In this document: piece after piece, positions 27,242 to 64,000 of the stretch | Numbering within the stretch: the first letter of the stretch is position 1 | How the letters are laid out: each line of letters opens with the position of its first letter | Source: Salidesulfovibrio onnuriiensis | GTDB lineage: Bacteria; Desulfobacterota; Desulfovibrionia; Desulfovibrionales; Desulfovibrionaceae | Reading direction: 5' to 3' | Length of the DNA: 64,000 nt | NCBI RefSeq assembly: GCF_008001235.1 | Contig: NZ_CP040751.1 | Span: forward strand, 62,001 to 126,000 | Made by a program: the position numbers and the translations under genes | The notes under the pieces: model-generated | Database searches by the model: none | The model's input: only the letters and a program-made list of their open reading frames with translations | What the model was told of the DNA's origin: nothing

Positions 27242-27278
27242 TGGTGGTTTCCGTATGGTCTCATGCAGTCAAAACTGT

Positions 27279-28076: not shown

Positions 28077-28079
28077 CCT

Positions 28080-29111: not shown

Positions 29112-29183
29112 GTCTGTTCTCCGCGAACCGTATCCGGCCGCCCGCCACGGCCCGGCGCACCAACATGCGAAAGCCGGGATTCA

Positions 29184-30476: not shown

Positions 30477-30485
30477 ACCTCGTCG

Positions 30486-32926: not shown

Positions 32927-32962
32927 GACTGTTTACTCCCGGCGAAATCCCACTCCAGATCC

Positions 32963-34036: not shown

Positions 34037-34731
34037 ACCATGCTCCATGGGATCGACACGCGATCGTCCCTTTTGAAATTCTCACGGACGGAATCGTGTA
34101 CATTCACATATCTATTCAACATCTCAGCAACATCGAGTTCAAAACGATACAGTTCATAATCCCCGGAAACAGTATCGTAGACACCAAATGTCCCCAGAGC
34201 GCCCTTATCGCGCGGCAGCCCGCAGGAACCGACATTGACCGCCACGGTCCTCCCGGAACGCCACGCATGCAGACGGTGGGTATGCCCCATAAAAACCGCA
34301 TCGTATCCCGAGCTTTCCCAATCGGGGGCCTGCTGGTCGGGGTACAGGCGTCCCTGCAAGGGATCTTCCGCCGTCCCATGGACAAAAAGCAGCCGTCTTC
34401 CGTCCAGGACCTCGGAATGCACGGGGCTCAATGACATCAGCATTTCTTTTTGCCTTTCCGACAACTGCGGCCTCTGGGCCTCAAGGCCGTAAACAGCATC
34501 CCTCTCCGGCTCCAAAGGCAACCGTCCCATAAGCATGGCTTCATGATTCCCGAGGAGCAATACGGCCCGGGCTTCGGTCAGGAGGCCGAGGCACTCCGTC
34601 CCCTGGGGGAAATATCCGAAAACATCCCCAAGGCAGACGAGCCGGTCCACATTGAGTGAACGCAACTTCTCCAGACAGCTCTCCAAGGCGGGCAGATTGC
34701 CATGAACATCGGAAAAAATGCCTAGTCTCAC
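34033..34731 (-). CDS. Metallophosphoesterase (YfcE/MJ0936-like)
   Basis: 232 residues, GTG start at 34731 behind GGGGGAG. All metal-binding blocks of the calcineurin-like fold are present: DVHGN, GDVFGYFP, GNHE and GHTHR. It would hydrolyse a phosphate monoester or diester. Placed in a glycan operon with an ATP-grasp gene it could remove a phosphate from a sugar intermediate, or it may be a housekeeping phosphatase. Coupled to the ATP-grasp gene by a 4-base overlap. Confidence 0.88.
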   Translation of the reverse strand: MRLGIFSDVHGNLPALESCLEKLRSLNVDRLVCLGDVFGYFPQGTECLGLLTEARAVLLLGNHEAMLMGRLPLEPERDAVYGLEAQRPQLSERQKEMLMSLSPVHSEVLDGRRLLFVHGTAEDPLQGRLYPDQQAPDWESSGYDAVFMGHTHRLHAWRSGRTVAVNVGSCGLPRDKGALGTFGVYDTVSGDYELYRFELDVAEMLNRYVNVHDSVRENFKRDDRVSIPWSMV

Positions 34732-49862: not shown

Positions 49863-50465
49863 CTAACGGCCGACCCTGCTGATGACGAAATCGAAAACCG
49901 CCTGAACCGAATCCTCCACGGCCATCCCGGCGGTCTCCATGCGAAATTCGGGTGCGGCCGGTTCCTCATAGGGGGCGGAAATTCCCGTGTAGTTCTTGAT
50001 CTTCCCCTCGCGGGCCATCTTGTAATACCCCTTGGCGTCCCGCTCCTCGCAGACCTCCACTGGGCACTGCACATATATCTCGTGAAAATCATCCGCGCCG
50101 ACAATATTCCTGGCCTTGGTCCTGTCCGCCGCGAGCGGGGAAATGAAGGCGCACAGGCAAATGGTGCCGTTTTCCACAAACAGCTTGGCAACCTCGGCAA
50201 TACGGCGCAGGTTCTCGGCCCGGCCCTCGGGGGAAAAGCTCAGGTCGCCGCACAGGCCGTGGCGCACATTGTCGCCGTCAAAGACCACGCACTTGAGTCC
50301 CTGGTCGAAAAGCCTCTTTTCCACGCCGTGGGCAATGGTGGATTTCCCAGAGCCGGAAAGCCCGGTAAACCAGAAGACCGCACTTTTATGGAGATTCTGT
50401 TCCTCCCGGTCCGCCCGGCAGACCTCACCGCGAAAACAACAGATATTCTGTTCTGACTTTTTCAT
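49863..50465 (-). CDS. cysC: Adenylylsulfate kinase
   Basis: 200 residues. P-loop GLSGSGKST near residue 35 and the APS-kinase core FDGDNVRHGL...RIAEVAKL, CAFISPLAADR and DFHEIYVQCPVEVC. It phosphorylates APS to PAPS. A sulfate respirer does not need PAPS for respiration, so a sulfate donor for sulfated glycans or small molecules is likely. It is the last gene of the second glycan operon, 14 bases after the ABC exporter. No sulfotransferase is visible in the window. Confidence 0.93.
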   Translation of the reverse strand: MKKSEQNICCFRGEVCRADREEQNLHKSAVFWFTGLSGSGKSTIAHGVEKRLFDQGLKCVVFDGDNVRHGLCGDLSFSPEGRAENLRRIAEVAKLFVENGTICLCAFISPLAADRTKARNIVGADDFHEIYVQCPVEVCEERDAKGYYKMAREGKIKNYTGISAPYEEPAAPEFRMETAGMAVEDSVQAVFDFVISRVGR

Positions 50466-50479
50466 TATTTTCCCTGTCC

Positions 50480-52273
50480 CTAGGATTCACAGGCCCCGGA
50501 GTCTTCCCCGGCTTCCCGGAACTGCATGGAATACAGCTTATCGTACAATTCGCATCGCCCCAGCAATTCCTCATGGCTGCCCACATCCACGATCTCGCCC
50601 TGCTGCATGACCACGATGCGGTCCGCATTGATGACCGTGGAAAGCCGGTGCGCGATGACAATGCTGGTGCGGGACTTCATGAGGTTGTCCAGGGCCTTCT
50701 GCACAATGCGCTCGGACTCTGTGTCCAGGGCGCTGGTGGCCTCGTCAAGGATCAGCAACTGCGGATTCTTGAACAGGGCGCGGGCAATGGTGAGGCGCTG
50801 CTTCTGGCCACCGGAAAGGCGCGTTCCCCGCTCTCCCACAACCGTATCATACCCTTCCGGCAAATTTTCAATAAATTCATGCGCATACGCAGCCTTGGCC
50901 GCAAGCGCCACCGCTTCCCGATCGATGTCGTCGTGACCATAGGCAATATTCTGCGCAACCGAGGAATTGAACAGAAAGGTATCCTGGGAAACCATGCCCA
51001 TACCCAGACGCAGCTTACCGAGATCATACTGCCCCAACTCGATTCCGTTGAGCCGCAGGGAGCCTTCCTGCACGTCGTAGAAACGCGGAATCAGATTGGC
51101 CAGGGTGGTCTTGCCCGACCCGCTTGGCCCCACCAGGGCCACACATTCGCCCCGCCGGATAGTCAGGTTGAAATCCTTGAGAACCGGAGAGATGCATGAT
51201 TCGTAGCTGAAGGTGATATTTCCGATCTCCAGGGACTCAAATTCCTCGGGGAAGGGAAGAACGCCGCCCGACTCCACCTTGACGTTCGGGTCGTCCAGCA
51301 AACCGAAGACGCGCTCTGCGCAGGCCAACGACTTCTGGATCATGCGGTTGGAGTTGTCCAGCTTCTTGACTGGCTCATACAAGACGGCCAAACCCACGAT
51401 AAAGGAAAACAGGGTACCCGGGGTCATGGAGCCCTCAACCACCTGGAGGCCGCCGTACCAGATCACGAGACTGATGCCCAGGCCGCTGATGAGTTCCATC
51501 ATTCGCGAGGAAGCTTCGCTGGCCAGCACCTGTTTCTTCGAGATGGTCACTATCTCCGCGGAATGCCCCTTGAAACCGCTGCTTTCCCGCTTTTCGGTAT
51601 TGAAGGTCTTGATGACCCGTATCCCGGACAAAGTCTCCTGTACCACGGAATTGATCTCCGCAGCCTGAACCGCCAAACGTCTGCCGAGCTTCCGCAACCT
51701 CTTGCCGAAGTAAATGAACGGATAAATGACAACCGGCAGAACGATCAGAGCCCAAAAGGCCAAGTGGACGTCCTGGTAGACGACCACCCCGATGACGAAA
51801 ATCAGCTTGAGAACTTCCCGCACGATCATCACCATATGCGGCACCGATTCCCGGATGCCGGCGACATCACCCAGGATGCGGGACATGAGCACACCGACAC
51901 GGCTTGCCTCGAAATACTTGAACGGCAAGGCCACCACCTTTGCGAACAGGTCGTTGCGCAGCTGTTCAAGCACCCGGTAGCCCGCTATGCACATGAGATA
52001 GTTCTGAATAAAACGGACATTGCTTTTCACAAAGACAATGCCGAATGCCACGATGGGAATGATCAGCAGCATCTGACTGTCTTTGCTTATGAAAATCTCG
52101 TCGATGGCCGGCTTGACAATGTACACGAGTGCGCCATCACAGGCGCTGTAAAAGGAGGACATCGCCAGGGAGATGAGCACGTACCACTTGTAGGGCTTGA
52201 AATATTCCCAGCAACGCCGAAGAAGATACTTGCTGGAAAAAAGATGTATGTTGTCCAGATTTGTGTGAGACAT
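50480..52273 (-). CDS. ABC exporter (MsbA-like lipid A/lipid-glycan flippase)
   Basis: 597 residues. Six membrane spans in residues about 25-320, then the ATPase with Walker A GPSGSGKTT, signature LSGGQKQR, Walker B LLILDEATSALD and H-loop IAHRLST. This is the arrangement of MsbA. It flips lipid A or lipid-linked glycans across the inner membrane. It is the second MsbA-type exporter in the window. A 96-base gap separates it from the upstream glycosyltransferase. Confidence 0.92.
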   Translation of the reverse strand: MSHTNLDNIHLFSSKYLLRRCWEYFKPYKWYVLISLAMSSFYSACDGALVYIVKPAIDEIFISKDSQMLLIIPIVAFGIVFVKSNVRFIQNYLMCIAGYRVLEQLRNDLFAKVVALPFKYFEASRVGVLMSRILGDVAGIRESVPHMVMIVREVLKLIFVIGVVVYQDVHLAFWALIVLPVVIYPFIYFGKRLRKLGRRLAVQAAEINSVVQETLSGIRVIKTFNTEKRESSGFKGHSAEIVTISKKQVLASEASSRMMELISGLGISLVIWYGGLQVVEGSMTPGTLFSFIVGLAVLYEPVKKLDNSNRMIQKSLACAERVFGLLDDPNVKVESGGVLPFPEEFESLEIGNITFSYESCISPVLKDFNLTIRRGECVALVGPSGSGKTTLANLIPRFYDVQEGSLRLNGIELGQYDLGKLRLGMGMVSQDTFLFNSSVAQNIAYGHDDIDREAVALAAKAAYAHEFIENLPEGYDTVVGERGTRLSGGQKQRLTIARALFKNPQLLILDEATSALDTESERIVQKALDNLMKSRTSIVIAHRLSTVINADRIVVMQQGEIVDVGSHEELLGRCELYDKLYSMQFREAGEDSGACES

Positions 52274-52369: not shown

Positions 52370-53548
52370 TTATTCCCGGCGGTTCAAAACGTCCCGCATG
52401 AAATCGAGACAGTCCTTTGCCCGCTGTTTCCATGTATGGGCAATTGCCTCTTCCCGGCAATTACTCTGCAGGCTGCGGGCAAGCCCCTGGCTGCCCGCGA
52501 GGCGCTCCACGGCCCGGGCAAGGGCCCTCGGGGCCGTGTCTTCGGCAAAGACCGCATTTTTCCCGTCCTCCAGCACCGCGCTGATGGCCGGAACCGGGGT
52601 GACCACCATGGGCAGCCCGAGGCCCATGGCTTCGTATAGTTTGATGGGAGAAAAAAACTCCGCCCTGGAATTCTGCGGGATAACGAAAATATGGCAATTC
52701 CGCAGCCGCGCGGCCAGTTCAACCGGCGAAAGGTGTCCGAAAAACTCGATACGGCCCCTTCCTCCCGGGATCCCGGCCGCCATTGTCCGCAGCCGTGTCA
52801 GCTCCTCGCCGGGATTGCCACCCATGACCAGCAGCCGAAAACGCTCGGGCAGGTGGCGCATGGCCTCCACCAGATCGTGAATGCCCTTGGCCTCATAGAG
52901 GCTGCCCGCATAGGCCAGATTCACCTGTCCGGACAAGTCAACATCGGGCACCGGCGAAAAGATCTGTTCATTGAACCCCATGGGAGCGGAAAACACCGGA
53001 ACGTCCGGTGCGTAAAACGCCTCGAGATCGTCCGCAAGCAATGGACTGATGACCACCACGCCGTCGAGCTGATCCAGCAGTTCAAGCTCAAGCCTTCTGA
53101 ACCGCTCCTCCCGGCCCGTGCCGTTTCGGCGGTGCTGCTCGGCCAGGATCTCGTGCATCTCGAAGAACAGGGGGCGCTTCAAACCGAAACGCCTTTTGAG
53201 GCGTGCCAGCATCAGGGCTTCCTTGATGTCCCGGGAATAAAAGACCGTTCCCGGCCCCGCCGCAAACCAGGCGGCGGCCATCTTGGCTCGGAAATTCACG
53301 CCATAGATTCCCTTGTGCCCGCCATAAAGGGATTTCAGATTCAATGCATCGACGGGCACAAGTCCATAGGCATTTTCCAATTCCCGGCGATACGCGGCGT
53401 GATCCCGCTGTCCCTTGAAACCCGGAAACAGGGTGGTACGCACCCCGGCCGAAGCAAAGGCGTAAGCCATGGTCAAGGACTGAAGCGAATTGGCCGCCCG
53501 CGAGGGAAGGATGAACTTCTTGGCGAAATAAAGCTGTTTGATATGCAT
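52370..53548 (-). CDS. Glycosyltransferase, GT4 type
   Basis: 392 residues from the Met at 53548 (weak ribosome-binding site). The N-half begins KQLYFAKKFILPS-like and has FPGFKGQRDHAAY; the C-half carries LAYAGSLYEAKGIHDL, RLLVMGGN and the IKLYEAMGLGLP acceptor motif, in which an E is followed by the usual GLP turn. It probably adds a sugar to the same glycan as the heptosyltransferase upstream. A longer frame overlapping the GT9 gene is rejected. Confidence 0.85.
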   Translation of the reverse strand: MHIKQLYFAKKFILPSRAANSLQSLTMAYAFASAGVRTTLFPGFKGQRDHAAYRRELENAYGLVPVDALNLKSLYGGHKGIYGVNFRAKMAAAWFAAGPGTVFYSRDIKEALMLARLKRRFGLKRPLFFEMHEILAEQHRRNGTGREERFRRLELELLDQLDGVVVISPLLADDLEAFYAPDVPVFSAPMGFNEQIFSPVPDVDLSGQVNLAYAGSLYEAKGIHDLVEAMRHLPERFRLLVMGGNPGEELTRLRTMAAGIPGGRGRIEFFGHLSPVELAARLRNCHIFVIPQNSRAEFFSPIKLYEAMGLGLPMVVTPVPAISAVLEDGKNAVFAEDTAPRALARAVERLAGSQGLARSLQSNCREEAIAHTWKQRAKDCLDFMRDVLNRRE

Positions 53549-53580
53549 GACGATGCGGGACAATACCCCGGCGGCGGGAC

Positions 53581-54633
53581 TCAGTCCATACCCTGGAAAA
53601 AGAAGGACTCCAGGCGCTTGAAAATTGCCTCGGGCTCCAGTTCGTAGAGACATTCCAGAGTGCCCAGACGGCATTCGGACTTATTGCAGCCCAGGCATGG
53701 ATTATTGCCGTGCTCGTTACGGATGTATGCATGATCCTCGGACGGGAAGGTCCAGCCGCCCGGCTTGTTGGAGCCCTGAATGATCAGGGACCGGGTGCCC
53801 ACGGCAACGGCAAAGTGACGCGGGGATGAACAGTTGCCGAAATGCCCGTTGGCCCGCTCAAGGATGGCAGCCATCTGGCGCAGGGTGGTCTGGTCCTGCG
53901 GGACCAGGCACTGGGAGGGATTGCCCGCCTGTGCCACGATGTTGTCCACCACGTCTTTCTCGCCCGGGCCGTAAAGCATGAGCATGCGGACCTGTGGATA
54001 CTTTTCAGCCACCATGCGAATGAGCTTGGCGTAATATTCCTCGGGCCATTTTCGGGTAATGCGTCGATGGGTGGCGTCGATGGTCAGCAGAAAAGCGTCC
54101 GCCCCCACTCCCAGGGAGGAAAGATAGTCCCGGGCCCAGGCCTTCTCGAGTTCCGTGAGAAACAACTCGGGGCGCTGGCCGTCCCATTCCACCCCCAGGG
54201 GACCGAGCACTCCGGCCTTGGCCTTGGAGGCATACCCTTTGCCCTCATTGCCGTAGAGGTTGTAAAATAGCCGGTTGTACCACTTGGGTTTGTAGGTGAG
54301 CCGGATCGGGGCTCCGCTGAGAAACACGCCCAGTTTGAGCCGGATAAGCTGCTGAAAGTCGACGACAAGGTCGTAGTTTTCACGGCGTATGCCAGAATAC
54401 AGGGAAAGCATTCCGGATAATCCCGCAGCCTTGTCGATGACCCAGACCTTGCTGAGCAGCGGGTTGTTCTCCAGCACGGGGGTGCATTTCCTCTCGGTCA
54501 GAAAATGCAACTCGGCATCGGGAAAACGCTCGTGCAACAGACGGATACAGGGTGTGGCCAACAGGACATCACCGATTTGATGCTGTTGGCAGACAAGAAT
54601 TTTCCCAGGTTGAATGGTTGTGGTTGACTGCAT
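53581..54633 (-). CDS. Glycosyltransferase family 9 (heptosyltransferase-like)
   Basis: 350 residues. N-terminal ILVCQQHQIGDVLLATPC is the GT9 start, with AELHFLTERK next; the C-half has LMLYGPGEKDVV, a helix-rich acceptor domain and GNCSSPRHFAVAVGT. The family adds heptose from ADP-heptose to the LPS inner core, but members in glycan loci can use other donors. A GmhA-like gene lies in the same operon. It overlaps no neighbour; a 32-base gap separates it from the next glycosyltransferase. Confidence 0.88.
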   Translation of the reverse strand: MQSTTTIQPGKILVCQQHQIGDVLLATPCIRLLHERFPDAELHFLTERKCTPVLENNPLLSKVWVIDKAAGLSGMLSLYSGIRRENYDLVVDFQQLIRLKLGVFLSGAPIRLTYKPKWYNRLFYNLYGNEGKGYASKAKAGVLGPLGVEWDGQRPELFLTELEKAWARDYLSSLGVGADAFLLTIDATHRRITRKWPEEYYAKLIRMVAEKYPQVRMLMLYGPGEKDVVDNIVAQAGNPSQCLVPQDQTTLRQMAAILERANGHFGNCSSPRHFAVAVGTRSLIIQGSNKPGGWTFPSEDHAYIRNEHGNNPCLGCNKSECRLGTLECLYELEPEAIFKRLESFFFQGMD

Positions 54634-54674: not shown

Positions 54675-55676
54675 TTATTTGATTCCGAAAATCTGTTTCA
54701 GCTTTCTAAAGGTCTTTTCCCTGGCCCAGAGCCGGTCCATACGCTTCAGCTCCTTGTACACGATTTCGTACTCGTTGGGCACTGGATCGGAAATGTCCGC
54801 TTCCGGTGTCTTGACGAATAGCGCCCTCACTTCGGAGTCCCCCTGCAGGAAGCGGAAACCATGCCGAGCTGCGACGTGAACGAGATGGGGAAGGGAGAAA
54901 TAATGCGAATGGGCCAGCTGCAGGGTATGCAGAATGTCATTTTCCTGGCGGGCGGGCCAGCTGAGGACGCCGGGAACCGAAAGAAACAGATGTCCGCCGT
55001 CGGGAAGAATTTCGCGCATGATCTCGAATTCGCCATCCAAATCATTGATGTGCTCAAGAACATGCATATACATAAGCAGATCAGGCTTGTCCCCAAGCTT
55101 AAGCAATTCGGTTGAAGGACCGACAAACACATCGCTCAGACCCAGCTCCTCTCTGGCGAACCGGATACCCGCCGCGTCGTAGTCCGTACCCGCAACACGG
55201 CATTCCTTGCCCACGAACTGGCTCAGAAGCGCCCCGAAATGCATGCCCACCTCGCACACAAACCTGGGGGTTCCGCCAAGCATGCCCATAATGGTTTCAT
55301 AGTCCGCGCGGGCGATTTCGATGTTCTGGCGATAAACCTCGCTGTTGCCACGAAATCCTGGATTATAAAGGTCTCTGTATTCATGGGAGTAAAATCCCGA
55401 CAGGGACTTCTGGTCCAGTCGCCTTCTCTGGTACATCATGCCGCAGTCGCGGCACAAAACAATCTGCACAGGCAGGAAATCGCGGTCAAAATTGGACACC
55501 ACCCCGTGAACATCGCTCCCGCAACACGGACATGACACCTGTTCAAAGGAGTATTCTCCACTGGCGATCTTGGACAAGACCTGATCGCGTATAGCCTTGC
55601 GCCCACCTTTGATACGCTTCACACGACGAGCTTTGGGCTTGGTGTATTCTGATGATAATATCGACTTATATTGCAT
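54675..55676 (-). CDS. Methyltransferase with N-terminal zinc ribbon
   Basis: 333 residues. Two Cys pairs, CPCC and CRDC, about 26 residues apart, form a zinc ribbon; a class I methyltransferase domain follows, with VCEVGMHFGALLSQF and YMHVLEHINDL. Such proteins (methyltransf_13/12-type) are common in sugar-methylating gene clusters. The sequence starts MQYKSILSSEY. It sits 14 bases after the Gfo/Idh gene. Confidence 0.82.
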   Translation of the reverse strand: MQYKSILSSEYTKPKARRVKRIKGGRKAIRDQVLSKIASGEYSFEQVSCPCCGSDVHGVVSNFDRDFLPVQIVLCRDCGMMYQRRRLDQKSLSGFYSHEYRDLYNPGFRGNSEVYRQNIEIARADYETIMGMLGGTPRFVCEVGMHFGALLSQFVGKECRVAGTDYDAAGIRFAREELGLSDVFVGPSTELLKLGDKPDLLMYMHVLEHINDLDGEFEIMREILPDGGHLFLSVPGVLSWPARQENDILHTLQLAHSHYFSLPHLVHVAARHGFRFLQGDSEVRALFVKTPEADISDPVPNEYEIVYKELKRMDRLWAREKTFRKLKQIFGIK

Positions 55677-55690
55677 TGAATCAGCTCAGG

Positions 55691-56704
55691 TTAATCTATT
55701 CCCACGCAGTTCCGGATCTCCAGCGCCAGCCGGTGGCCCTCCACCACCCGGGACAGATTGGTTTTCGGCTCGGCCCCGCTCCTCACGCAGTCCACAAAAT
55801 GCCGGATTTCCTCCACGAACATCTCGTTGCGATCGAACGAGGAGAAGTCCTCCTTCCGCGTGCCCTGCTCCACGTGTTCCACGGTGACCAGGCTTCGCAT
55901 GCCGTCCCAGCGGACAAAGCCGTTCTCGGCATGGATGGTGATGGTGCGCACGGGGGGACGCTGCACAAACGACATCTGCAGCGTCACGGGAAAGGGACGA
56001 CCGTCCAGCCGGTATTCCATGAGCGAGCAGACCGTGTCCTCCACATCCATGTCCAGGGAGGAAAGCTTGCCGCCCGAGGCAAAGACCTTCTCGGGCCTGC
56101 CGAACATGGCGGCCACCAGATCCAGCTCGTGGATCTCGGAGAGCACGGCCCCGCCGCCCAGGTCCTTCCGGCCCGCGTAGAATTCGTTGTATTTCTCGTA
56201 ACTGTGCCAGGAGGGCATGTAGGAGTTGAGCTGCACGTGCATGGAATGCATGCGGCCCGCGGCCTGCTCCTCGACCAGATCCATGAAGCGCTGAACGCCC
56301 GGGTGAAAGCGGAACATGTAGCCCACCATGACCGGCGTATGCTTTTCCTCCATGAGGGCCAGCAGTTCGTCCAGTCCTTCGCTGTCGGCAGAGACCGGCT
56401 TTTCCAGGAAGACCGGGACGCCGGCCCGCACCAGTGCCGTGGTCTGATCCATGTGGGCGCTGGTGGGCGAGGCGATGATCGCGCAGTCCGGCTGCCAGGC
56501 AACGCCCTCCTCCAGGCTGGAGAAACGGGCAATGCCGTATTTTTCCATTATATCCACGGAATAGTCGGGCTGCAGGTCAAAGCCGATCTCGAAGGCACGG
56601 TCCGTATGACGCACGGCCCCGAGCTGGGCGTCGGGCATGACGCTCAGCAGGTTGCGCAGATGGCGCTGGCCCACGCCGCCAAGCCCGAGAAAAAGCGCCT
56701 TCAT
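55691..56704 (-). CDS. Gfo/Idh/MocA family oxidoreductase
   Basis: 337 residues. The N-terminal Rossmann motif is LGLGGVGQRHLRN, and the family catalytic EKP is in VFLEKPVSAD, with the substrate-binding His region ending in HRLALEIRN. Such NAD(P)-dependent enzymes oxidise or reduce sugars or sugar nucleotides. It is the first gene downstream of the class III aminotransferase, one base apart, implying tight coupling, possibly making the keto acceptor for that enzyme. Confidence 0.9.
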   Translation of the reverse strand: MKALFLGLGGVGQRHLRNLLSVMPDAQLGAVRHTDRAFEIGFDLQPDYSVDIMEKYGIARFSSLEEGVAWQPDCAIIASPTSAHMDQTTALVRAGVPVFLEKPVSADSEGLDELLALMEEKHTPVMVGYMFRFHPGVQRFMDLVEEQAAGRMHSMHVQLNSYMPSWHSYEKYNEFYAGRKDLGGGAVLSEIHELDLVAAMFGRPEKVFASGGKLSSLDMDVEDTVCSLMEYRLDGRPFPVTLQMSFVQRPPVRTITIHAENGFVRWDGMRSLVTVEHVEQGTRKEDFSSFDRNEMFVEEIRHFVDCVRSGAEPKTNLSRVVEGHRLALEIRNCVGID

Positions 56705-56705
56705 G

Positions 56706-58043
56706 CTACACCTTCTTTCCTTTGCGGGTGTAGGAGTTGAAATCGGCCACCTTGCGGAAAACCGGACGAACCGGAATGCCGTCGATCTGTGAGCGCAGGT
56801 CCAGGCCCTTGTCCACGATCTTCTTGAACCCGGTCAGGGCGCGTTCGTAGGCCTTCAGGGTGCGTTCGATGTCTTCGTCCTTGTGGGCCCAGGAAAGGGC
56901 GTGATAGGCGGCCCAGAGAATGCCGTCGTAAAGCAGTTCCTGCTGGATGTAGGACTTCATTTCCAGGTCGTTGTACCTGTCCTGCCCGTCAAAGGTGATG
57001 ACCGTGCGGCAGGGGTAGCCCACGCACTGGAAGAAATCGGCAACCCCGATCTCCTCGGCCAGCGTGTTGAAGCCGTCTTTCAACTTTTCGCCCACCTTCC
57101 AGAGATGGCCGGGCACGTCCTCGCGCTGGATCTTTGGAATGCAGGCGTTGGCTGCGGCCAGGCCGATGCAGTCGCCGCCATAGGTAAAGGAGAAAAAAGT
57201 CTGCTCCAGGGCGAAGAGGTAGTCCTTCTTGCCGCAGATGGCCGAAAGCGGGATGCCGTTCGATACCGCCTTGGCCAGCGAGGTCAGGTCCGGGGTTACG
57301 CCGGTGAGTTCCTGGGCTCCGCCGATGGCGAAGCGGAAACCGGTGATGATCTCGTCGAACATGAGCAGCGCGCCGTAGTGATGGGCCATCTTCTTGACCT
57401 CGGCCAGGAAGTTGTCCTTGGGCTCCAGGACGGTGAGCGGCTCCATGATGACAATGGCCACCTCGCCCGGGTGGGCCTTGAAGATGCTCTCCAGACTGTC
57501 CAGGTCGTTGTAGTTGAACGAATGGGCAAGCTGCTTGTTGAACTCGGGGACGCCGCTGTTCAGGTCGGTGTTGGCGATATACCAGTCATGCCAGCCGTGG
57601 TAGCCGCAATAGGCGATGTGTTCGCGGCCGGTGACCGCCCGGGCGATGCGCACGCCCACGCTGGTGGCGTCGGCCCCGTTCTTGCCGAAGCGGACCGCCT
57701 CGGCGCAGGGAACCGTCTCGATGATCTTTTCGGTCACCTCCACTTCCAGCTCATTCATGAGGCTGAAGGTGGAACCCAGCTCAAGCTGCTCCACTACCGC
57801 GCGGTTCACGTCGTCGTCGGCATAGCCGAGGATGATGGGGTGGCAGGCCATGACGTAGTCCAGGAACTGATTCCCGTCCACATCCCAGACGTTGGCGCCC
57901 TTGCCGCGGTGCAGGTACTTGGGCGCCACGCCTTCCACAAACTGGGTCACGCCCTTGGAAAAGGTCTGGCTGCCGGCGGGTACGACCTTCTGCGCCCGGG
58001 CGTATATCTCGTCGGATTTGGCAATGCTGAATTTCTTACTCAT
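56706..58043 (-). CDS. Class III PLP-dependent aminotransferase (glutamate-1-semialdehyde-aminomutase-like)
   Basis: 445 residues. FGKNGADATSVGVRIAR, YHGWHDWY, DEIITGFR and the PLP-binding Lys of TSLAKAVSNGIPLSA. It resembles HemL-type aminomutases and amino-sugar aminotransferases. The start MSKKFSIAK at 58043 is preceded by GGAGGAG and overlaps the cytidylyltransferase stop by 8 bases. Within this operon it likely installs an amino group on a sugar or ulosonic-acid precursor rather than making aminolevulinate. Confidence 0.85.
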   Translation of the reverse strand: MSKKFSIAKSDEIYARAQKVVPAGSQTFSKGVTQFVEGVAPKYLHRGKGANVWDVDGNQFLDYVMACHPIILGYADDDVNRAVVEQLELGSTFSLMNELEVEVTEKIIETVPCAEAVRFGKNGADATSVGVRIARAVTGREHIAYCGYHGWHDWYIANTDLNSGVPEFNKQLAHSFNYNDLDSLESIFKAHPGEVAIVIMEPLTVLEPKDNFLAEVKKMAHHYGALLMFDEIITGFRFAIGGAQELTGVTPDLTSLAKAVSNGIPLSAICGKKDYLFALEQTFFSFTYGGDCIGLAAANACIPKIQREDVPGHLWKVGEKLKDGFNTLAEEIGVADFFQCVGYPCRTVITFDGQDRYNDLEMKSYIQQELLYDGILWAAYHALSWAHKDEDIERTLKAYERALTGFKKIVDKGLDLRSQIDGIPVRPVFRKVADFNSYTRKGKKV

Positions 58044-58719
58044 CGTCTCCTCCCATGGGGCAACCGGCCGCCTTCCAACGGTCATAGTCCTCCGGGGTGT
58101 CTATTTCGATCAGTTTATCCCGGGTCGTCTCATCCAGAAAATAGGGATGGGTGTCGGCGCAGATCATCTCGGAATTGAGGCTGTCCAGCGCGCGGGCCCG
58201 AAAGCAGTATACATAATGGTAGTGGATCCAGGCCGGGGGAAGGTCCTGGCGTCGGAAGCAATCGTTTTCCACGTATTGCGCCAGCTTACCGGCGTCTTCA
58301 TCATACTTCCAGCAGTTGAAGGGATGCGTCTTCACGGGCACGAAGGTGCACAGGCTGTCGCAGGATGCGGAATCGATAAGCGCCTTGGCGTTTTCGAAAT
58401 GCCTTCTGTTCTTAAACAGCACCGGCAGGTAGAACAGCCAGAGAACGTCGTCGGGCTCGATGTCCATGGTCGCCACCACATGGTCGAAGACCTGGTGGAT
58501 GGAAACGGCCGGTCCGGCCAGCTCCCCGGGACGTTCATGAACTTCGTAGGCATGCCTGGAAGCATACTCGCTTATCACCGGGTCGTCCGTGGAGACGATG
58601 ACGCGGTCGAACCAGTCCACCGTGTCCACGAAATCGGCGGTGATGTCGAAAAACTTGCGATTCTTGAACTTGAACCCGACGCTGCCCATGCGGGCGGGAA
58701 TGATCGCTATGTGCTTCAT
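58036..58719 (-). CDS. Cytidylyltransferase (NeuA/CMP-sugar synthetase family)
   Basis: 227 residues. MKHIAIIPARMGS at the N-terminus is the CTP-binding loop of NeuA-like enzymes, though the usual GSKGIPRKN is replaced by GSVGFKFKN. Further on: VDTVDWFDRVIVSTDDP, SIHQVFDHVVA and LFYLPVLFKNRRHFE, and EIDTPEDYD near the end. It would activate a sialic-acid-like sugar as the CMP derivative. Its start overlaps the formyltransferase stop (TGATG). Confidence 0.82.
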   Translation of the reverse strand: MKHIAIIPARMGSVGFKFKNRKFFDITADFVDTVDWFDRVIVSTDDPVISEYASRHAYEVHERPGELAGPAVSIHQVFDHVVATMDIEPDDVLWLFYLPVLFKNRRHFENAKALIDSASCDSLCTFVPVKTHPFNCWKYDEDAGKLAQYVENDCFRRQDLPPAWIHYHYVYCFRARALDSLNSEMICADTHPYFLDETTRDKLIEIDTPEDYDRWKAAGCPMGGDDE

Positions 58720-59825
58720 CACTTTTCCTGTTGCACCTTGCCGGGGGTGCTGGTCATTGACGCCACCTTGGGGACAGCCGTACGAGCCTCGGCCAGGATG
58801 GCCCACGGCGTGTGCAGAGTCGTATTGACTGAAAGGAAGTCGGCCGAGACCAGGGACTGGCCGTCCACGACCACGGTGGGAATCACCAGCATGTTCTCCA
58901 GCATGAACACTCGGGCCTCGCCTTTGTCGGTAAAACCGACGACCCTTCCCTTGAGAAAGGGATGATTCGGCCGCGGCAATGGTTCAAGCCGGGCCTCGGG
59001 GATATGAAAGCGACGCTCGCCCGCATAGGTGAAGGCCCCGGGATAGGGGGCACCGAAGGCGCGGATAAAACGCTCGACCGCAACATCGCTCCAGTTCCAA
59101 TCGATGGCCCCGTTCTGCTCGGTATACAACCGGGGGAGATACGTGCTCTCCTCCTCGCTCTGCGGATGACAAGGAACCGCACCTTGCCTGCAGAACGAAA
59201 GGAATTCCCGCAGCAACTCCAGGTAGACCCTGTTGGTGCCCACCAGATAATCATGCGGGGTAGGGAATTCCTTTTCCAGCTCGGTCCGTTTCTGGACGAT
59301 GACCGCCCCGGTGTCAATGCCTTCATCCAACACGTGGACCGTGGCTGAAACCTCTTTGCTGTTGTTGAGGATTCGCCAGGAAAAAGTGCCGCCGCCGCGT
59401 TCGGCGGGAAGCATACTGGGGTGGATATTGAAAATGAACCCGTTTACCGCCCGTATGAAATCACGTTTGATAATACTCCGACAGCTCAGGGAAAAACCAG
59501 CGGTAACACCCTCCTCCCTGAGCACCTCCAGGGAATCGGGGGTGTTGACAGTCGAGGTCTCGAACACGCGCAGACCCAGACGCTCCGCGGTCTCAAAGAC
59601 GTTCTTGTAAAGCTCGGGCGAGGTCAGCAGAGTGGCATCCCGGACATGCTGATCGCGCGGATGCGTCATGATGAGGGGGTTGGGAAAGCCTGACTCCACC
59701 AGCATTTCCGCGAAGGAGCACAAATGGAAACCGGAACCCAAAAGGACAAACCGAAGGTCCTTTTGGGCCGGTATATTCATTGTGCCGCTCGCGACTTGTA
59801 ATGAGCCGTTTTCGAGCGCTGTCAT
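58719..59825 (-). CDS. Formyltransferase family protein
   Basis: 368 residues. The methionyl-tRNA-formyltransferase-like core is seen: FNIHPSMLPAERGGG (Asn-His catalytic pair), ATVHVLDEGIDTGAVI (His and Asp). The first 90 residues form the N10-formyl-THF-binding fold (LRFVLLGSGFHLCSF). The C-terminal part (about 235-368) resembles the OB-like FMT extension. In this operon it is more likely a sugar N-formyltransferase than a tRNA enzyme. The start at 59825 lacks a good ribosome-binding site but is 6 bases after the synthase stop; Met16 is an alternative. Confidence 0.8.
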   Translation of the reverse strand: MTALENGSLQVASGTMNIPAQKDLRFVLLGSGFHLCSFAEMLVESGFPNPLIMTHPRDQHVRDATLLTSPELYKNVFETAERLGLRVFETSTVNTPDSLEVLREEGVTAGFSLSCRSIIKRDFIRAVNGFIFNIHPSMLPAERGGGTFSWRILNNSKEVSATVHVLDEGIDTGAVIVQKRTELEKEFPTPHDYLVGTNRVYLELLREFLSFCRQGAVPCHPQSEEESTYLPRLYTEQNGAIDWNWSDVAVERFIRAFGAPYPGAFTYAGERRFHIPEARLEPLPRPNHPFLKGRVVGFTDKGEARVFMLENMLVIPTVVVDGQSLVSADFLSVNTTLHTPWAILAEARTAVPKVASMTSTPGKVQQEK

Positions 59826-59831
59826 AGTGAT

Positions 59832-60671
59832 TTAAGACGGTGTGTTGATGGGAGCCAGCTTCTTTCTGATGGAGGCTTCCTTCTCACCGATCTGCTTTTC
59901 AGGGCTGCCAAGGGCCTTTTCCACGGTGCGGATCATGCGCACCAGGCGCTGAAAACCACCTATTTCCACGGAAGCGGCCTGGTCGGAGCCATACATGGCG
60001 CGATCCAAGGTGATGTGGCGCTCGATGGAGGATGCCCCCAATGCTGCGGCGGCCACGGACACCGTCAGACCCACCTCATGGCCGCTCCAACCCACGTTGC
60101 AGCCGAAACGTTCGCGCAGGGTGCCCATGACACGCAGGTTGGCGTCCTCGTCCGGCATGGGATAGGTGGACACGCAATGCATAAGTTCAAACGGGCAACC
60201 ATGCTTGCGGAAAATATCCACTGCGGTCTGAATTTCCTCCACGGTGTGCATGCCGGTGGAAATAAAGGTATGGCGCTTCTTGGCTGCGATCTTCTCCAGC
60301 AGCGGAAGATTGGTCAGCATGGCCGAGGCGACCTTGTCGTACTTGATGTCAAAGCTGTGCAGGAAATCCTGGGCGTCCAGGTCCCATGCCGAAGCAAACC
60401 AGTGAATGCCCTTTTCCTTGCAGTAACGATCAATCTCCTCGTATCCTTCGCGATCGAACTCCAAGCCTTCCTTCTGTTCACGCTGGGTGGTTCCCCAGGG
60501 GCTTTCGCGCGGGGAATCCAGAAATTCCTGGGTGTACACGTTGTCGATGGTCCGCTTCTGAAATTTGACGGCATCGGCTCCGGCTTCAACAGCGCCATCA
60601 ATGAGCTTCTTGGTAATATCGAGGTCACCGTTGTGGTTGATGCCAATTTCACCGATTATGAAAATGCTCAT
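59832..60671 (-). CDS. N-acetylneuraminate synthase family protein lacking the SAF domain
   Basis: 279 residues, TIM barrel only. IGEIGINHNGD, AVKFQKRT, STGMHT, LMHCVSTYP, GWSGHE and ERHITLDRAMYGSDQA are clear family motifs. It ends right after the barrel (EASIRKKLAPINTPS), where the 2678-3769 paralog continues into a SAF domain. The family condenses PEP with an aldose or N-acyl-hexosamine. The missing SAF cap implies a different or altered substrate site. The gene has an AGGAGGAAGG site upstream and belongs to the second glycan operon. Confidence 0.87.
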   Translation of the reverse strand: MSIFIIGEIGINHNGDLDITKKLIDGAVEAGADAVKFQKRTIDNVYTQEFLDSPRESPWGTTQREQKEGLEFDREGYEEIDRYCKEKGIHWFASAWDLDAQDFLHSFDIKYDKVASAMLTNLPLLEKIAAKKRHTFISTGMHTVEEIQTAVDIFRKHGCPFELMHCVSTYPMPDEDANLRVMGTLRERFGCNVGWSGHEVGLTVSVAAAALGASSIERHITLDRAMYGSDQAASVEIGGFQRLVRMIRTVEKALGSPEKQIGEKEASIRKKLAPINTPS

Positions 60672-60696
60672 GGAACCTTCCTCCTGTGAGAAATAC

Positions 60697-61968
60697 CTAA
60701 TTTATAAGAGATTGTAGAAAATCTGCGTATGTGTCCACGACGGAGCGTCCAGAACTGCCACCGTATACGTAATACTTAATCATCTGCTGCAACGATTTCT
60801 CGTCATACAGGTTTTCGGCCCTGCGTTCAACGAGCTTGTTGACCATGACCGTGAAATCCTCATAACTGCCCGGATTGGCATCAAAACCAAAGCCACGAAG
60901 CGCCATTTTGACAGAGGTGGCGTACTCCAGGAGAATTACGGGCTTATTGCGCACGAAGGCGTCCATGAACACGCTGGAACAACAGCCGACGCTCAGATCC
61001 GCCCAGGAGATCAACTGGTTCGTGGGTATGGCGTCTTCCGCCAAATATCTTTTATAGGCCCGAAGCATCTTGGACTGACGGTGGCTCACCCCCCTGGCAT
61101 TGCCCTTGATCTTCAATTCGACGCAGGGATGCTTGGCCAGAAAGTCGATGGCGCGGAACTGTTCCTCCGCATTGATCCATTCCACAAACCTTCCGTTGAC
61201 GGACATGTCTCCCTTCTCAAGGATAACCAGCACCTTGAGACGGCCGGTCTTCGACGCCGGGGCCGGATACATGTTGCAGAGTTCGCGGACCCATTCCGGG
61301 TCGAACCTCGGTAGTCCGAAGACATGCAGCCTACCGGGATTATCCACATCTGCGTCGGCAAGCTCCCGCTGCCACTCGTCGTTGACCACCACATGGTCAA
61401 AACAACTCACCAGCGGCCTGGCGGTAACCGAGGAAAGGATAATCTCCTGCCCTTCGGGGTCGGCATGCCCGTAATGGAACTGAAAACCATGGGGGAGGCT
61501 CACGGTGGGGAAGCCTTTTTTTTTCGCCTCTTCGATCAGGGCCAGCGCATTCGAACTCTGATTATGATCGGTTATGAACACAGACCCTTCGGGAGCCCGG
61601 CTGATGACCTGGACGGCATGTTCCATGGGCGCAGTGCGGTCCACCAGCTTGCGATACAGAAACTTACGCGCTTTTCGGCGCACCAGCTTTCCCAGCGGCG
61701 CGGCGGAAAGCCAATGCAACACGGAGCGAAACCCTCCGTAGAGATAGGGGGCCTCAAGAACAACCCCCTGCCGGGCCAGGAATTGAAGACGTTTATCCCG
61801 CCGGGGCTCTATGGAAGGATCGGCTTCATAGGCGATATATCTGATGCGAGAAGGCTCGACTCCCTTGCGAAGGAGCCCCCAGATCACGGGAACGACATGA
61901 TCGATATCGTTGTAGTGCCTTGCGAAAAAGAGAAACTGGGAAGCCTGCGCGCCGTCAGCCGCTAGCAT
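60697..61968 (-). CDS. Hypothetical protein, GT-B-like (CDP-glycerol transferase-like)
   Basis: 423 residues. Not clearly recognised. The second half (LKVLVILEKGDMSVN, VELKIKGNARG, ISWADLSVGCCSSVFMDAF, VRNKPVILLEY) follows the donor-domain pattern of TagB/CDP-glycerol glycerophosphotransferase-like and Kdo-transferase-like GT-B enzymes, where a Ser/Cys turn before DAF and a nearby Glu bind the donor. The first half is cytoplasmic and rich in aromatic residues. It may transfer the CMP-activated sugar made by its neighbours. The start overlaps the GmhA-like stop. Confidence 0.5.
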   Translation of the reverse strand: MLAADGAQASQFLFFARHYNDIDHVVPVIWGLLRKGVEPSRIRYIAYEADPSIEPRRDKRLQFLARQGVVLEAPYLYGGFRSVLHWLSAAPLGKLVRRKARKFLYRKLVDRTAPMEHAVQVISRAPEGSVFITDHNQSSNALALIEEAKKKGFPTVSLPHGFQFHYGHADPEGQEIILSSVTARPLVSCFDHVVVNDEWQRELADADVDNPGRLHVFGLPRFDPEWVRELCNMYPAPASKTGRLKVLVILEKGDMSVNGRFVEWINAEEQFRAIDFLAKHPCVELKIKGNARGVSHRQSKMLRAYKRYLAEDAIPTNQLISWADLSVGCCSSVFMDAFVRNKPVILLEYATSVKMALRGFGFDANPGSYEDFTVMVNKLVERRAENLYDEKSLQQMIKYYVYGGSSGRSVVDTYADFLQSLIN

Positions 61969-62558
61969 GCATCAAACTCCGGGTCGCAGAGCATGCGCTC
62001 CACCAGTTCGCAAAGGATGTGGCCCGCCGCAATGTGGGTTTCCTGAATGCGGGGCGTGCAGCCGGACGGGGCCTTGAAGCAGGTGCACATGTCGTGCAGC
62101 GTGCAGGCGTTTTCTCCGGTCATGGCATAGCTGACCATGCCCATCTTTTCGGCCGCCTCCACGCAGGCCACAATGTTGGGCGAATTGCCGCTGGTGGAGA
62201 TACCGATGAACACGTCGCCTTCGCGGCCCAGCGCCTTGATCTCGCGCAGGAACACGTCCCGGTAATCGTAGTCGTTGCCCACGGCGGTGAGAATGGAGTT
62301 GTTGGCGCCCAGAGCCAGCCCAGAGAGCGGCTCCCGCTCCATGGTAAAGCGGGACACGAACTCCCCGGCCAGATGAATGCTGTCGGCAAAGCTGCCGCCG
62401 TTGCCCGCAAAGACGACCTTCCCACCCTTGCGCAGACTTTCGGCCACGGCAAGGCTCATGTCGCGAATCACGCTTATTTGATCGGATTCAAGCAGCCTTT
62501 GTTTGACGTCGATGCTGTCCTGAATCCGGGAAATGATGAGTTCATTCAAGGTTGCCAT
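61962..62558 (-). CDS. gmhA: SIS-domain sugar isomerase (GmhA-like)
   Basis: 198 residues. GNGGSFADSIHLAGEF, ISTSGNSPNIV and the end GCTPRIQETHIAAGHILCELVE, with catalytic Glu/His positions, match phosphoheptose isomerase GmhA, which converts sedoheptulose-7-P to D-manno-heptose-7-P. In this operon it may supply a heptose-type or related sugar, or it may use another ketose-phosphate. GAGGATATAGCC precedes the start. It overlaps the next gene by 7 bases. Confidence 0.85.
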   Translation of the reverse strand: MATLNELIISRIQDSIDVKQRLLESDQISVIRDMSLAVAESLRKGGKVVFAGNGGSFADSIHLAGEFVSRFTMEREPLSGLALGANNSILTAVGNDYDYRDVFLREIKALGREGDVFIGISTSGNSPNIVACVEAAEKMGMVSYAMTGENACTLHDMCTCFKAPSGCTPRIQETHIAAGHILCELVERMLCDPEFDAC

Positions 62559-62597
62559 GGCTATATCCTCATATATAAAAAATGGTTCGTCCGGGGA

Positions 62598-63425
62598 CTA
62601 CCAGCAGGTGCGGCCGCCGTCCACGGACAGGTTGGCTCCGGTCATGTAGGACGAGGCGTCCGAGATCAGGAAAAGCACCGCCCCCTTGTACTCGTCCACC
62701 GCAGCCATACGTCCCATGGGAATCAGGTTGGTGAGCCGGCCCACGAAGTCGTCGGGCTGGCCGGCGTACACGCCGCCCGGGGCCAGGGAATTGACCCGCA
62801 CACCCTTCTGAGCCCAGTAGGTGGCCATGTATTTGGTCAGGCCCATAAGCCCGTGCTTGACGATACTGTAAGTCACGGGTTTGACCGGCTGCTCTTTCTC
62901 GTCCAGGCCTTCCTGGCGGTAAATGCGCTGGTCCGGAGCAATGACGCCCAGGTCCGAGGCGATGTTCAGGATGGAGCCTCCGCCGTTTTCTGCCATGTGG
63001 CTGCCAATTACCTGGGCGCACAGAAAGGCCCCGGTCAGCCCGACGGCTATGTCGCTGTTCCACATGTCCAATGCGAAATTCTCGAAACGGCTCCAGGAAA
63101 ACCCCTTGGAAGCGTCCACCTTGGGATCGTTGGCCGCGTTGTTGATGAGCCCGTGCACCCCGCCGTGGGCGGAAAGCACCTCGGCGAAAGCCTGCTCAAT
63201 CGATGCGCGATCCGTAATGTCCACCCGTGCGCCGGAGCAGCGCCCCTCGTGGGATTCACCCAGCCCCCTGGCAACATCGTCGGCATTGGGGATAATGTCC
63301 CAGAGCACGGCCGTGCCTCCGGCCTCCATGACGGCCTCGGCATGCTTGCGCCCCAGCAGGCCGCAGCCGCCGGTAATGATCACCACCTTACCCTTCAGGG
63401 CGTAGCGGTCCATGACACTTTCCAT
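62598..63425 (-). CDS. Short-chain dehydrogenase/reductase
   Basis: 275 residues. NAD(P)-binding VVIITGGCGLLGRK, LINNAAN, the Ser region (SILNIASDLG) and the Y-x3-K pair (YSIVKHG), ending in VDGGRTCW. It oxidises or reduces a hydroxyl or keto group on a sugar. The start at 63425 (ATG after GGAG with an 8-base spacer) is preferred to the later ATG at 63413. Long upstream open frame is a GC artefact. It resembles the PtmA-like reductases of nonulosonate clusters. Confidence 0.87.
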   Translation of the reverse strand: MESVMDRYALKGKVVIITGGCGLLGRKHAEAVMEAGGTAVLWDIIPNADDVARGLGESHEGRCSGARVDITDRASIEQAFAEVLSAHGGVHGLINNAANDPKVDASKGFSWSRFENFALDMWNSDIAVGLTGAFLCAQVIGSHMAENGGGSILNIASDLGVIAPDQRIYRQEGLDEKEQPVKPVTYSIVKHGLMGLTKYMATYWAQKGVRVNSLAPGGVYAGQPDDFVGRLTNLIPMGRMAAVDEYKGAVLFLISDASSYMTGANLSVDGGRTCW

Positions 63426-63447
63426 ATATCTGCTCCTTGAAATTTCG

Positions 63448-64000
63448 CTAGCCCAACCAATCCTGGACCATGGCGCCATAGCGGGCCACAGCACCGGCGT
63501 GGTCGCCGTCCTCGGCCCGTGCGGTCTGCAGGATGTAGTTGCCTGTGTACCCGGCCTCTTCCAGGCCCCGGATGGTTTCTCCAATCTCGGCCACCCCCGC
63601 GCCCAAGGGAACGGTTGTTCCAAAGTCGGGAAGCCTGTCCTTGATGTGCACGTTGAGGATGCGATCGGTATAGAGGGCGAGTTCCTCTCGACACTTAAAG
63701 CCGAAGGCTGCGCTGTTGCCGGTGTCCAGGTTGACCCCGAAGCAGGCTTCGTCGAGCCTGCGGATAAAACGGTTCAACTCGCCGGGCTGGTAATCGGACT
63801 CGAAAACGATGCCCAACCCGTGCTCGACCAGGAAAGGTCTCACGTTCTTCATTTCCGCGACAAGCCCGTCTTCCATGGCGCGGTCCTCCAGGCGTCCGTC
63901 GTCCACCAGGGGAATGCAGATGAACTTGCATTGAATGCGGCGGCAGGCCTCAAGGACATTCTGCATGTCGCTGACCAGCTGTTCGCGCTCGCTCCCCTTT
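63448..64000 (-). CDS. Sugar phosphate isomerase/epimerase, TIM barrel (5' end outside the window)
   Basis: The visible 184 residues stay open to the right edge; a Met at 63966 exists but the upstream codons remain coding (EREQLVSD), so the true start is probably beyond the window. The family's metal-binding blocks are present: FVNLDTGNSAAFG (Asp/Glu region) and ILNVHIKDR. It is a xylose-isomerase-like AP-endonuclease-family-2 protein; isomerises or epimerises a sugar phosphate or keto-sugar. It is 22 bases upstream of the SDR gene in the same operon. Confidence 0.75.
   Translation of the reverse strand, partial: KGSEREQLVSDMQNVLEACRRIQCKFICIPLVDDGRLEDRAMEDGLVAEMKNVRPFLVEHGLGIVFESDYQPGELNRFIRRLDEACFGVNLDTGNSAAFGFKCREELALYTDRILNVHIKDRLPDFGTTVPLGAGVAEIGETIRGLEEAGYTGNYILQTARAEDGDHAGAVARYGAMVQDWLG

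Follow-up and report, generated by a model that had tools for sequence, protein, structure and literature searches.

Nine tightly packed genes of Salidesulfovibrio onnuriiensis and a possible new route to a CMP-activated ulosonic acid

Which sugar is made by a run of genes that brings together a short NeuB-family synthase, a class III aminotransferase, a formyltransferase and a NeuA-like protein? The question is raised by a stretch of 64,000 nucleotides of Salidesulfovibrio onnuriiensis (contig NZ_CP040751.1, positions 62,001 to 126,000; hereafter the window), which carries such a series from position 55691 to its right end. The genome, 3.89 Mb long, is contained in a single contig. The model we propose, with a probability of about one half, is that this operon makes a cytidine monophosphate (CMP)-activated, N-formylated amino 3-deoxy-2-ulosonic acid by a phosphorylated route resembling those of 3-deoxynonulosonic acid (Kdn) and 3-deoxyoctulosonic acid (Kdo), for a dedicated glycosyltransferase and a surface glycan. 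The broader statement, that we are dealing with a real operon for a type of CMP-ulosonic acid pathway that has not been described, with support from several phyla, is the most likely one.

By Pfam and NCBIfam scans and the reading of open reading frames (ORFs), the series consists of nine genes of the minus strand, listed here in the order of transcription:

63448..64000, minus: TIM-barrel protein resembling sugar isomerases/epimerases, truncated at the window end (PF01261, 4.8e-14)
62598..63413, minus: short-chain dehydrogenase/reductase (SDR) (PF13561, 1.3e-40; PtmA model 2.6e-30, under its cut-off)
61962..62558, minus: GmhA-like SIS sugar-phosphate isomerase (PF13580, 3.2e-23; PRK13936, 1.7e-49, under cut-off)
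60697..61968, minus: 423-residue protein between the SIS and NeuB genes, probable GT-B glycosyltransferase (no family above cut-off)
59832..60671, minus: short NeuB-family synthase of 279 residues, without SAF domain (PF03102, 1.6e-76)
58719..59825, minus: N-formyltransferase, ArnA/Fmt-like (PF00551, 3.4e-15; PF02911, 1.9e-9; NIHPS and DEGIDTG motifs)
58036..58719, minus: divergent putative CMP-ulosonate synthetase, NeuA-like (PF02348, 1.7e-5, a weak match of 25.2 bits against a cut-off of 22.6)
56706..58043, minus: class III (GSA-type) aminotransferase (PF00202, 4.7e-39; PRK06209, 2.3e-122, under cut-off; LAKA motif)
55691..56704, minus: Gfo/Idh/MocA oxidoreductase, accessory (PF01408, 4.5e-18)

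Successive genes are spaced by -8 to +39 nt, and three junctions overlap, by 7, 1 and 8 nt. The TIM-barrel gene is complete just past the window end (285 residues, L006:12449-13306, minus; L numbers designate loci), with a divergent ORF as its next notable neighbour upstream. The aminotransferase most likely starts at the ATG at 58043 behind GGGAGGAG, giving 445 residues. A preliminary description of this DNA had listed eight minus-strand families, all of which are confirmed by the Pfam and NCBIfam matches; it had left out the 423-residue ORF, which brings the series to nine.

The evidence that carries our model is the recurrence of the set in distant bacteria. Among the best 80 of at least 556 relatives of the short NeuB found by the genome scan, members of the aminotransferase and NeuA-like clades defined below stand with the short NeuB in four loci (L074, L137, L135 and L121). 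The locus of Paramagnetospirillum caucaseum SO-1 (L074) contains genes for a haloacid dehalogenase-type (HAD) protein, the short NeuB, the TIM-barrel protein, the formyltransferase, the NeuA-like protein (56%), the aminotransferase (75%), the Gfo/Idh oxidoreductase and the SDR, with the SIS gene 6 kb away on the opposite strand; the NeuB, formyltransferase, NeuA-like, aminotransferase and Gfo/Idh order of the window is found again there, with the TIM gene between NeuB and the formyltransferase. In the two Chloroflexi/SAR202 loci, L137 and L135, the genes are SIS, short NeuB, a TylF-type methyltransferase, TIM, a GNAT in the position of the formyltransferase, NeuA-like (48-50%) and the aminotransferase (71%); L137 adds an SDR and a gene resembling polysialyltransferases (PF07388, 26.4 bits vs a cut-off of 23.3), and L135 matches it up to the aminotransferase, after which the contig ends. 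The 113-residue ORF preceding SIS in these loci (HADx) is assigned to the HAD type by reading alone, with no match in Pfam. In the Pelagibacteraceae locus, L121, the short NeuB is followed 5 kb on by the NeuA-like, SDR, aminotransferase, TIM and SIS genes, separated by a 1-nt gap or overlapping by 4-7 nt, and a gene with a formyltransferase domain lies on the other strand. Homologues of the TIM-barrel protein are present in all five window-like clusters, window included, and most of the four distant ones also have genes for an SDR, an SIS protein and an acyltransferase. Chance neighbourhood was rejected, since the set recurs in other phyla. The earlier proposal of a single pathway to a CMP-activated, aminated and N-acylated ulosonic acid, distinct from the standard neuraminic, legionaminic (Leg) and pseudaminic (Pse) acid routes, is supported by the comparison with these four distant loci.

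The trees agree with this grouping. The window aminotransferase and those of the four distant loci form one clade (SH-aLRT 100), and the NeuA-like proteins group in a clade of eight (SH-aLRT 99), which also takes in L084 (Omnitrophota), a 484-kb phage record and a viral contig. The NeuA tree was built from 78 rows minus three of fewer than 170 residues and the second copy of the window protein; the clade was labelled by an alignment motif, and therefore not blind, and the long-branch warnings include L121 and the join of L120 with the clade. For the NeuA-like protein as a candidate CMP synthetase, a family match barely over the cut-off and the predicted fold agree: its AlphaFold model (pLDDT 89) best matches CMP-NeuAc, CMP-Kdn (9t4z) and CMP-Pse synthetases. 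The usual motifs, however, are lost, as the clade lacks about six residues behind KN as well as the PTSP-like motif of most aligned relatives, and carries KNR and RRQD or RYQD instead. A search of the viral contigs with the NeuA-like query returned no relative, and L065 was found later via NeuB. In the uncultured phage LR756508 (484 kb), the clade member (L013:8989-9630) stands amid glycosyltransferase- and sulfotransferase-like ORFs.

What would be the acceptor of the synthase? The window protein is a member of the NeuB superfamily by PF03102, by its core motifs and by its alignments to 6ncs and 8h2c, and it ends directly after the NeuB domain, lacking the SAF domain of a PseI-type synthase; 6ncs is itself a solved chain of only 290 residues. 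The same brevity characterizes its relatives, 79 of the 80 having an ORF that ends at most 20 residues past the aligned core, which leaves no space for a SAF domain, and one having 58 further residues. The protein remains under the equivalog cut-offs of both NnaB (270.4 vs 399.65) and PseI (203.2 vs 340.25), and the nine genes include no NDP-sugar 4,6-dehydratase, DegT aminotransferase, GNAT or uridine diphosphate (UDP)-sugar hydrolase PseG by Pfam and NCBIfam and no NeuC epimerase/hydrolase by Pfam. An ordinary Neu5Ac, legionaminic or pseudaminic acid pathway run by divergent enzymes is therefore very improbable, clear though the membership in the NeuB family is.

The neighbours of the short NeuB point instead to a phosphorylated Kdn/Kdo-like route and not to the UDP-sugar route of Pse and Leg. 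A HAD-type gene is within 1.5 kb in 46 of the 80 loci (36 of the 58 having more than 1.5 kb on both sides), a count which pools three references, KdsC-type, HAD-IIIA and HADx, the last without Pfam match; the KdsC-type reference alone has a match in 37 of the 80. An SIS gene is found within 2 kb in 22 loci, a CMP-transferase within 3 kb in 56, an SDR within 10 kb in 51 and a TIM gene within 6 kb in 28. The control, mostly of Pse type, consisted of 26 NeuB genes with full flanks among 149 loci, nearer to the PseI or long-NeuB reference and called long by best-matching reference rather than by measured length; HAD and SIS were found in none of the 26, and PseB was near 19. The HAD reference of the short-NeuB locus L084 has as its best NCBIfam model the Kdn-9-phosphate phosphatase (99.8 bits vs a cut-off of 180), followed by the KdsC subfamily (93.8 vs 106.95). 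Since HAD and SIS neighbours are frequent and the HAD of L084 is nearest to Kdn-9-phosphate phosphatase, the short NeuB would most likely use a phosphorylated aldose, by analogy with Kdn-9-phosphate synthase as described in PMC6200933. The preliminary judgement that these genes match no nameable pathway was accordingly too strong: the short NeuB and its usual HAD and SIS neighbours resemble the logic of phosphorylated Kdn and Kdo synthesis.

In such a route, a phosphatase is expected. The genome has two HAD matches, an orphan of 161 residues at G000:C1:621790-622275 (L188:5791-6276), which adjoins an ORF reading like an RND efflux pump, and a KdsC-like protein at C1:2593459. In a tree of 46 rows, the orphan groups with 40 HADs of short-NeuB loci (SH-aLRT 100), and the KdsC-like protein with four of the HAD-IIIA kind, also from short-NeuB loci. 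By this grouping the orphan would be the better phosphatase candidate of the two, though not a proven one.

The presence of an SIS protein in the series is explicable if the acceptor is phosphorylated. Its nearest solved relatives are phosphoheptose isomerases, the nearest chain being 2xbl, and it misses the equivalog level of GmhA (PRK13936, 168.3 bits vs 276; TIGR00441, 155.9 vs 209.45). We compared motif positions which we take to be the substrate-binding residues of GmhA. RIQExH and STSGNS are kept, and GGSF together with N is shared by 10 of the 26 aligned rows, those of the window and of nine proteins linked to a short NeuB; the other SIS protein of the genome (L187, C1:3307388; GmhA identity not verified) has GGSA and D at these positions. 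The substrate may differ from sedoheptulose 7-phosphate; were a heptose 7-phosphate the substrate, the ulosonic chain would have ten carbons. The idea that the window protein is the sole GmhA of the genome, serving lipopolysaccharide heptose, was discarded in view of the other SIS at C1:3307388 and of the two altered positions held in common with nine short-NeuB-linked proteins.

Could the product then be plain or lightly modified Kdn made from mannose 6-phosphate, with the aminotransferase, formyltransferase and Gfo/Idh oxidoreductase making a separate second amino sugar of the same glycan? Short NeuB genes without the aminotransferase are far commoner than those with it (10 of 80 loci within 10 kb, at more than 150 bits), the HAD of L084 resembles the Kdn-9-phosphate phosphatase model and the NeuA model also matches the CMP-Kdn synthetase 9t4z. 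We nevertheless consider this unlikely: the aminotransferase and NeuA-like genes overlap by 8 nt and belong to one gene run in five of five window-like clusters, the two proteins of these clusters fall in matching clades, and relatives show cytidylyltransferase-aminotransferase fusions.

The fusions bear on the order of the steps. A SpsF-type cytidylyltransferase and the aminotransferase occur in one ORF in 5 of 16 Desulfobacterota loci (L169-L172 and L183, confirmed by Pfam for L169), and L168 is very likely a sixth case, because its ORF has 683 residues as in L169 and the aminotransferase alignment extends past its end. In one of the 16, L173, the aminotransferase is fused to an SDR (742 residues). 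The fusions link amination with both oxidation and CMP activation, the cytidylyltransferase ones belonging to other aminotransferase clades than that of the window. Because the two are fused in L173, a role as redox partner of the aminotransferase seems a better fit for the window SDR than the making of a precursor, the role first given to it. An identity of the aminotransferase with the heme enzyme HemL (glutamate-1-semialdehyde aminomutase) was rejected, the protein being far under the equivalog cut-off (TIGR00713, 236.6 bits vs 527.3; PRK06209, 408.7 vs 486).

Beside these results, several observations concern the fusions and relatives of the aminotransferase in their own right. The SpsF-type fusions L169:8205-10256, L170-L172, L183 and probably L168 include three (L168-L170) inside Pse-type clusters, and they possibly represent a branch of Pse with a third amine. 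The same fusion is encoded by the viral contig L018:507-2543, where the gene for a terminase large subunit is 1.7 kb away, which suggests that phages carry ulosonic-acid tailoring genes; a NeuB-family match is present in the fetched flank of 14 of the 17 viral contigs having the aminotransferase. In the haloarchaeal plasmids L014 and L015, relatives (41-44%) are near DegT aminotransferases in apparently catabolic or transport surroundings, not in glycan clusters.

The nearest aminotransferase group (joint support 83) comprises L011, L143, L173 and L174, all beside a short NeuB and an SDR; split transketolase genes adjoin it in L011, L173 and L174, and no transketolase match was obtained at L143. 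Two of these loci (L173:7166-12144 and L011:9749-15361), with split transketolase, aminotransferase, SDR and short NeuB, represent another uncharacterised ulosonic-acid layout. This neighbourhood makes a sugar-phosphate substrate possible for the aminotransferase, and Pse and Leg routes do aminate before condensation. It could thus be argued that a keto-sugar phosphate is first aminated by the SDR and the aminotransferase, and that the short NeuB then condenses the resulting amino sugar phosphate with phosphoenolpyruvate (PEP). The cytidylyltransferase fusions suggest a late amination, although in another clade, and we regard the early one as rather doubtful.

A further possibility comes from the neighbourhood of the window. 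NeuB-family matches number five in the genome. About 6-11 kb past the right window end, at L007:655-6253, lies what looks like a full Pse set of its own (DegT, PseF, PseB, PseG and PseI); PseF, PseG and PseI exceed their equivalog cut-offs, and DegT and PseB are named from sequence reading. L006:15839-18406 adds a WbuX/PseA-type amidotransferase (over cut-off) with HisF- and HisH-like ORFs (sequence reading). The preliminary statement that PseB/PseC, UDP-hydrolase and N-acetyltransferase are missing holds for the nine genes, and the separate Pse set lies beyond the window. The genes of the series might then tailor Pse, for instance by 8-amination and formylation, the short NeuB and the SIS protein being minor or spare. 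PseB is present in 10 of the 16 Desulfobacterota aminotransferase loci, and tailoring of Pse at C8 by EpaA-EpaB was demonstrated by nuclear magnetic resonance (NMR), according to PMC12053666. The window aminotransferase, however, is outside the clade of those from Pse clusters, its series has its own NeuB and putative CMP synthetase, and the four distant loci combine a short NeuB with no PseB match in their fetched flanks, so that Pse tailoring is improbable here. Two other loci of the genome touch the same subject: a long NeuB of 363 residues near the left window end (2678-3769), and a second glycan locus (L009:2730-17948) with two more NeuB genes and formyltransferase-, cytidylyltransferase- and radical SAM-like ORFs, mostly named by sequence reading.

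The enzyme families, the packing of the genes, their co-occurrence, the fusions of their relatives and the core motifs are what we observe, with a predicted fold for the NeuA-like protein; which substrates are used, in what order the steps follow, where the amine sits and how many carbons the chain has are all inferred. In the preferred model of an N-formylated amino-ulosonic acid, the SIS protein would isomerise a ketose phosphate to an aldose phosphate, which the short NeuB would condense with PEP. Removal of the phosphate would fall to a HAD phosphatase, the orphan at G000:C1:621790-622275 being the most likely one in this genome. One hydroxyl would be oxidised by the SDR, or possibly by the Gfo/Idh protein, and isomerisation or epimerisation beside the carbonyl so made may be the task of the TIM-barrel protein. 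The class III aminotransferase would introduce the amine, the formyltransferase would cap it, the NeuA-like enzyme would activate the product with cytidine triphosphate, and the 423-residue protein would transfer the sugar. The best solved match of the formyltransferase is ArnA, and PseJ is also among its solved relatives. The 423-residue protein is, by its position, the best candidate transferase for the CMP-sugar: its model is of low confidence (pLDDT 53.9), so that the GT-B-like matches are only a hint, and relatives were found in 2 of 246 other genomes of the phylum searched, both at most 10 kb from ulosonic-acid genes. Plasmids and viral contigs contained none, and comparing its profile with that of the L137 polysialyltransferase-like protein showed no relation (probability 0.1).

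Several points weigh against this scheme. The set is found in just 4 of the 80 loci, so that independent examples are few; most short-NeuB neighbourhoods lack the aminotransferase, and TIM and SDR genes are common there even without it. The Gfo/Idh gene is present in two of the five window-like clusters, the window and L074, with no match in L121, L137 or L135, whose contig ends early. By Pfam, the series has no HAD gene, whereas the CMP-Kdn route would have its phosphatase in the same cluster; the orphan HAD is about 500 kb away, and the HADs linked to short NeuB genes are, by the tree, not all of one kind. Neither L074, L121, L135 nor L137 has both changed positions in its SIS protein, and these changes are consequently no marker of the window-like set. 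The motif losses of the NeuA clade may mean a different activity. Within the phylum, the genome of the window is the only one of 297 with a match to the NeuA-like protein (E up to 1e-20). Class III aminotransferases, first described as unusual in such a cluster, are not special to it: of 197 further genomes of the phylum, 15 have relatives (E up to 1e-110), which mostly sit in Pse-type clusters, and Legionella Sg6 offers a precedent by its annotation in PMC3694923. The literature searched contained no assay of an enzyme of the window-like clades; nor did it contain a characterised pathway with this gene set, which is weak evidence of novelty given partial coverage with subscription literature mostly outside.

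Downstream, the series continues with the following genes:

54675..55676, minus: S-adenosylmethionine-dependent methyltransferase, 14 nt from the Gfo/Idh gene (PF13489, 5.3e-12)
53581-54633, minus: GT9 glycosyltransferase (PF01075, 8e-15)
52370-53674, minus: GT4 glycosyltransferase, mechanical start (PF13692, 4.9e-23)
50480-52273, minus: ATP-binding cassette exporter (PF00664/PF00005)
49863-50465, minus: adenylylsulfate kinase, end of the series (PF01583)

At 0.53-0.63, the GC content of the nine genes and of the methyltransferase does not differ clearly from that of the window (0.56-0.63 in 4-kb steps) and gives no sign of recent transfer; what supports such a transfer is the rarity of the NeuA-like protein in the phylum. 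Elsewhere in the window, DsrA and DsrB are encoded, by which the host is judged to be a sulfate reducer, and the minus strand of 26276-34731 has genes resembling radical SAM proteins, an ATP-grasp protein (carbamoyl phosphate synthase-like) and a YfcE-like phosphodiesterase.

If the model is correct, the sialic acid family gains a branch in which a phosphorylated Kdn-like route is combined with amination by a class III enzyme and with an N-acyl step open to either a formyltransferase or a GNAT, and many short NeuB genes which now bear a family name alone are given a use. A bolder version, with the SIS protein and the short NeuB acting on a sugar phosphate other than mannose 6-phosphate, a formamido product of the SDR, aminotransferase and formyltransferase, and a CMP-synthetase clade of its own also carried by phages, would be a new ulosonic-acid class; we advance it only tentatively.

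How does the series compare with the systems already known? To our knowledge, the CMP-amino-ulosonic acids receive their amines while their precursors are linked to UDP or GDP, ahead of the NeuB step, with the exception of the 8-amino derivative of Kdo (Kdo8N). The Kdo8N route uses a DegT-type KdnA and a metal-dependent alcohol dehydrogenase, KdnB; neither of these families is among the nine genes by Pfam and NCBIfam. PseJ and ArnA resemble the formyltransferase in transferring a formyl group onto an amino sugar, and differ from its proposed role in acting on UDP-linked precursors. Formylation has other precedents: an N-formylated legionaminic acid is proposed in Halorubrum together with a predicted formyltransferase gene (PMC6137143), and flagellin glycosylation islands of Geobacillus contain formyltransferase genes (PMC5109656).

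The remaining comparisons follow the descriptions in the papers cited. In the flagellin modification system sfmABCDE of Shewanella oneidensis, thought to produce a modification containing a nonulosonic acid, a 290-residue NeuB-domain protein and a 3-oxoacyl-ACP-reductase-type (SDR-like) protein recall the window; a thiamine pyrophosphate enzyme, a methyltransferase and an ATP-grasp protein stand where the window has SIS, TIM, aminotransferase and formyltransferase, the five genes described include no CMP synthetase, and a maf gene is nearby, the likeness being one of description only (PMC3765264). The O-antigen cluster of Legionella pneumophila Sg6/Sg12 (Lp6_762-775) has, by annotation, a class III aminotransferase beside an acylneuraminate cytidylyltransferase, but it is of Pse type, with PseG, DegT, CapD and GNAT, and SIS, TIM and formyltransferase are not named in the part of the account consulted (PMC3694923). 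The prophage-borne EpaA-EpaB pair of Acinetobacter, made up of a cytidylyltransferase-aldo-keto reductase fusion and an SDR, turns Pse into its 8-epimer. As in our loci, an SDR is associated with a fusion of a cytidylyltransferase domain and a tailoring enzyme, the target is an ulosonic acid and phages are carriers; the pair differs in having an aldo-keto reductase in place of an aminotransferase and in epimerising instead of aminating (PMC12053666). The closest parallel in logic is the CMP-Kdn route of Bacteroides thetaiotaomicron and Prymnesium parvum, with its Kdn-9-phosphate synthase, phosphatase and CMP-Kdn synthetase, compared here by description (PMC6200933). The window departs from it by its additional aminotransferase, SDR, TIM-barrel protein, formyltransferase and Gfo/Idh oxidoreductase, by a series without HAD gene and by the divergence of its NeuA-like protein; the proposed logic of synthase, phosphatase and putative CMP synthetase would be the same, and HADs of the KdsC/Kdn-9-phosphatase type are linked to many relatives of its NeuB.

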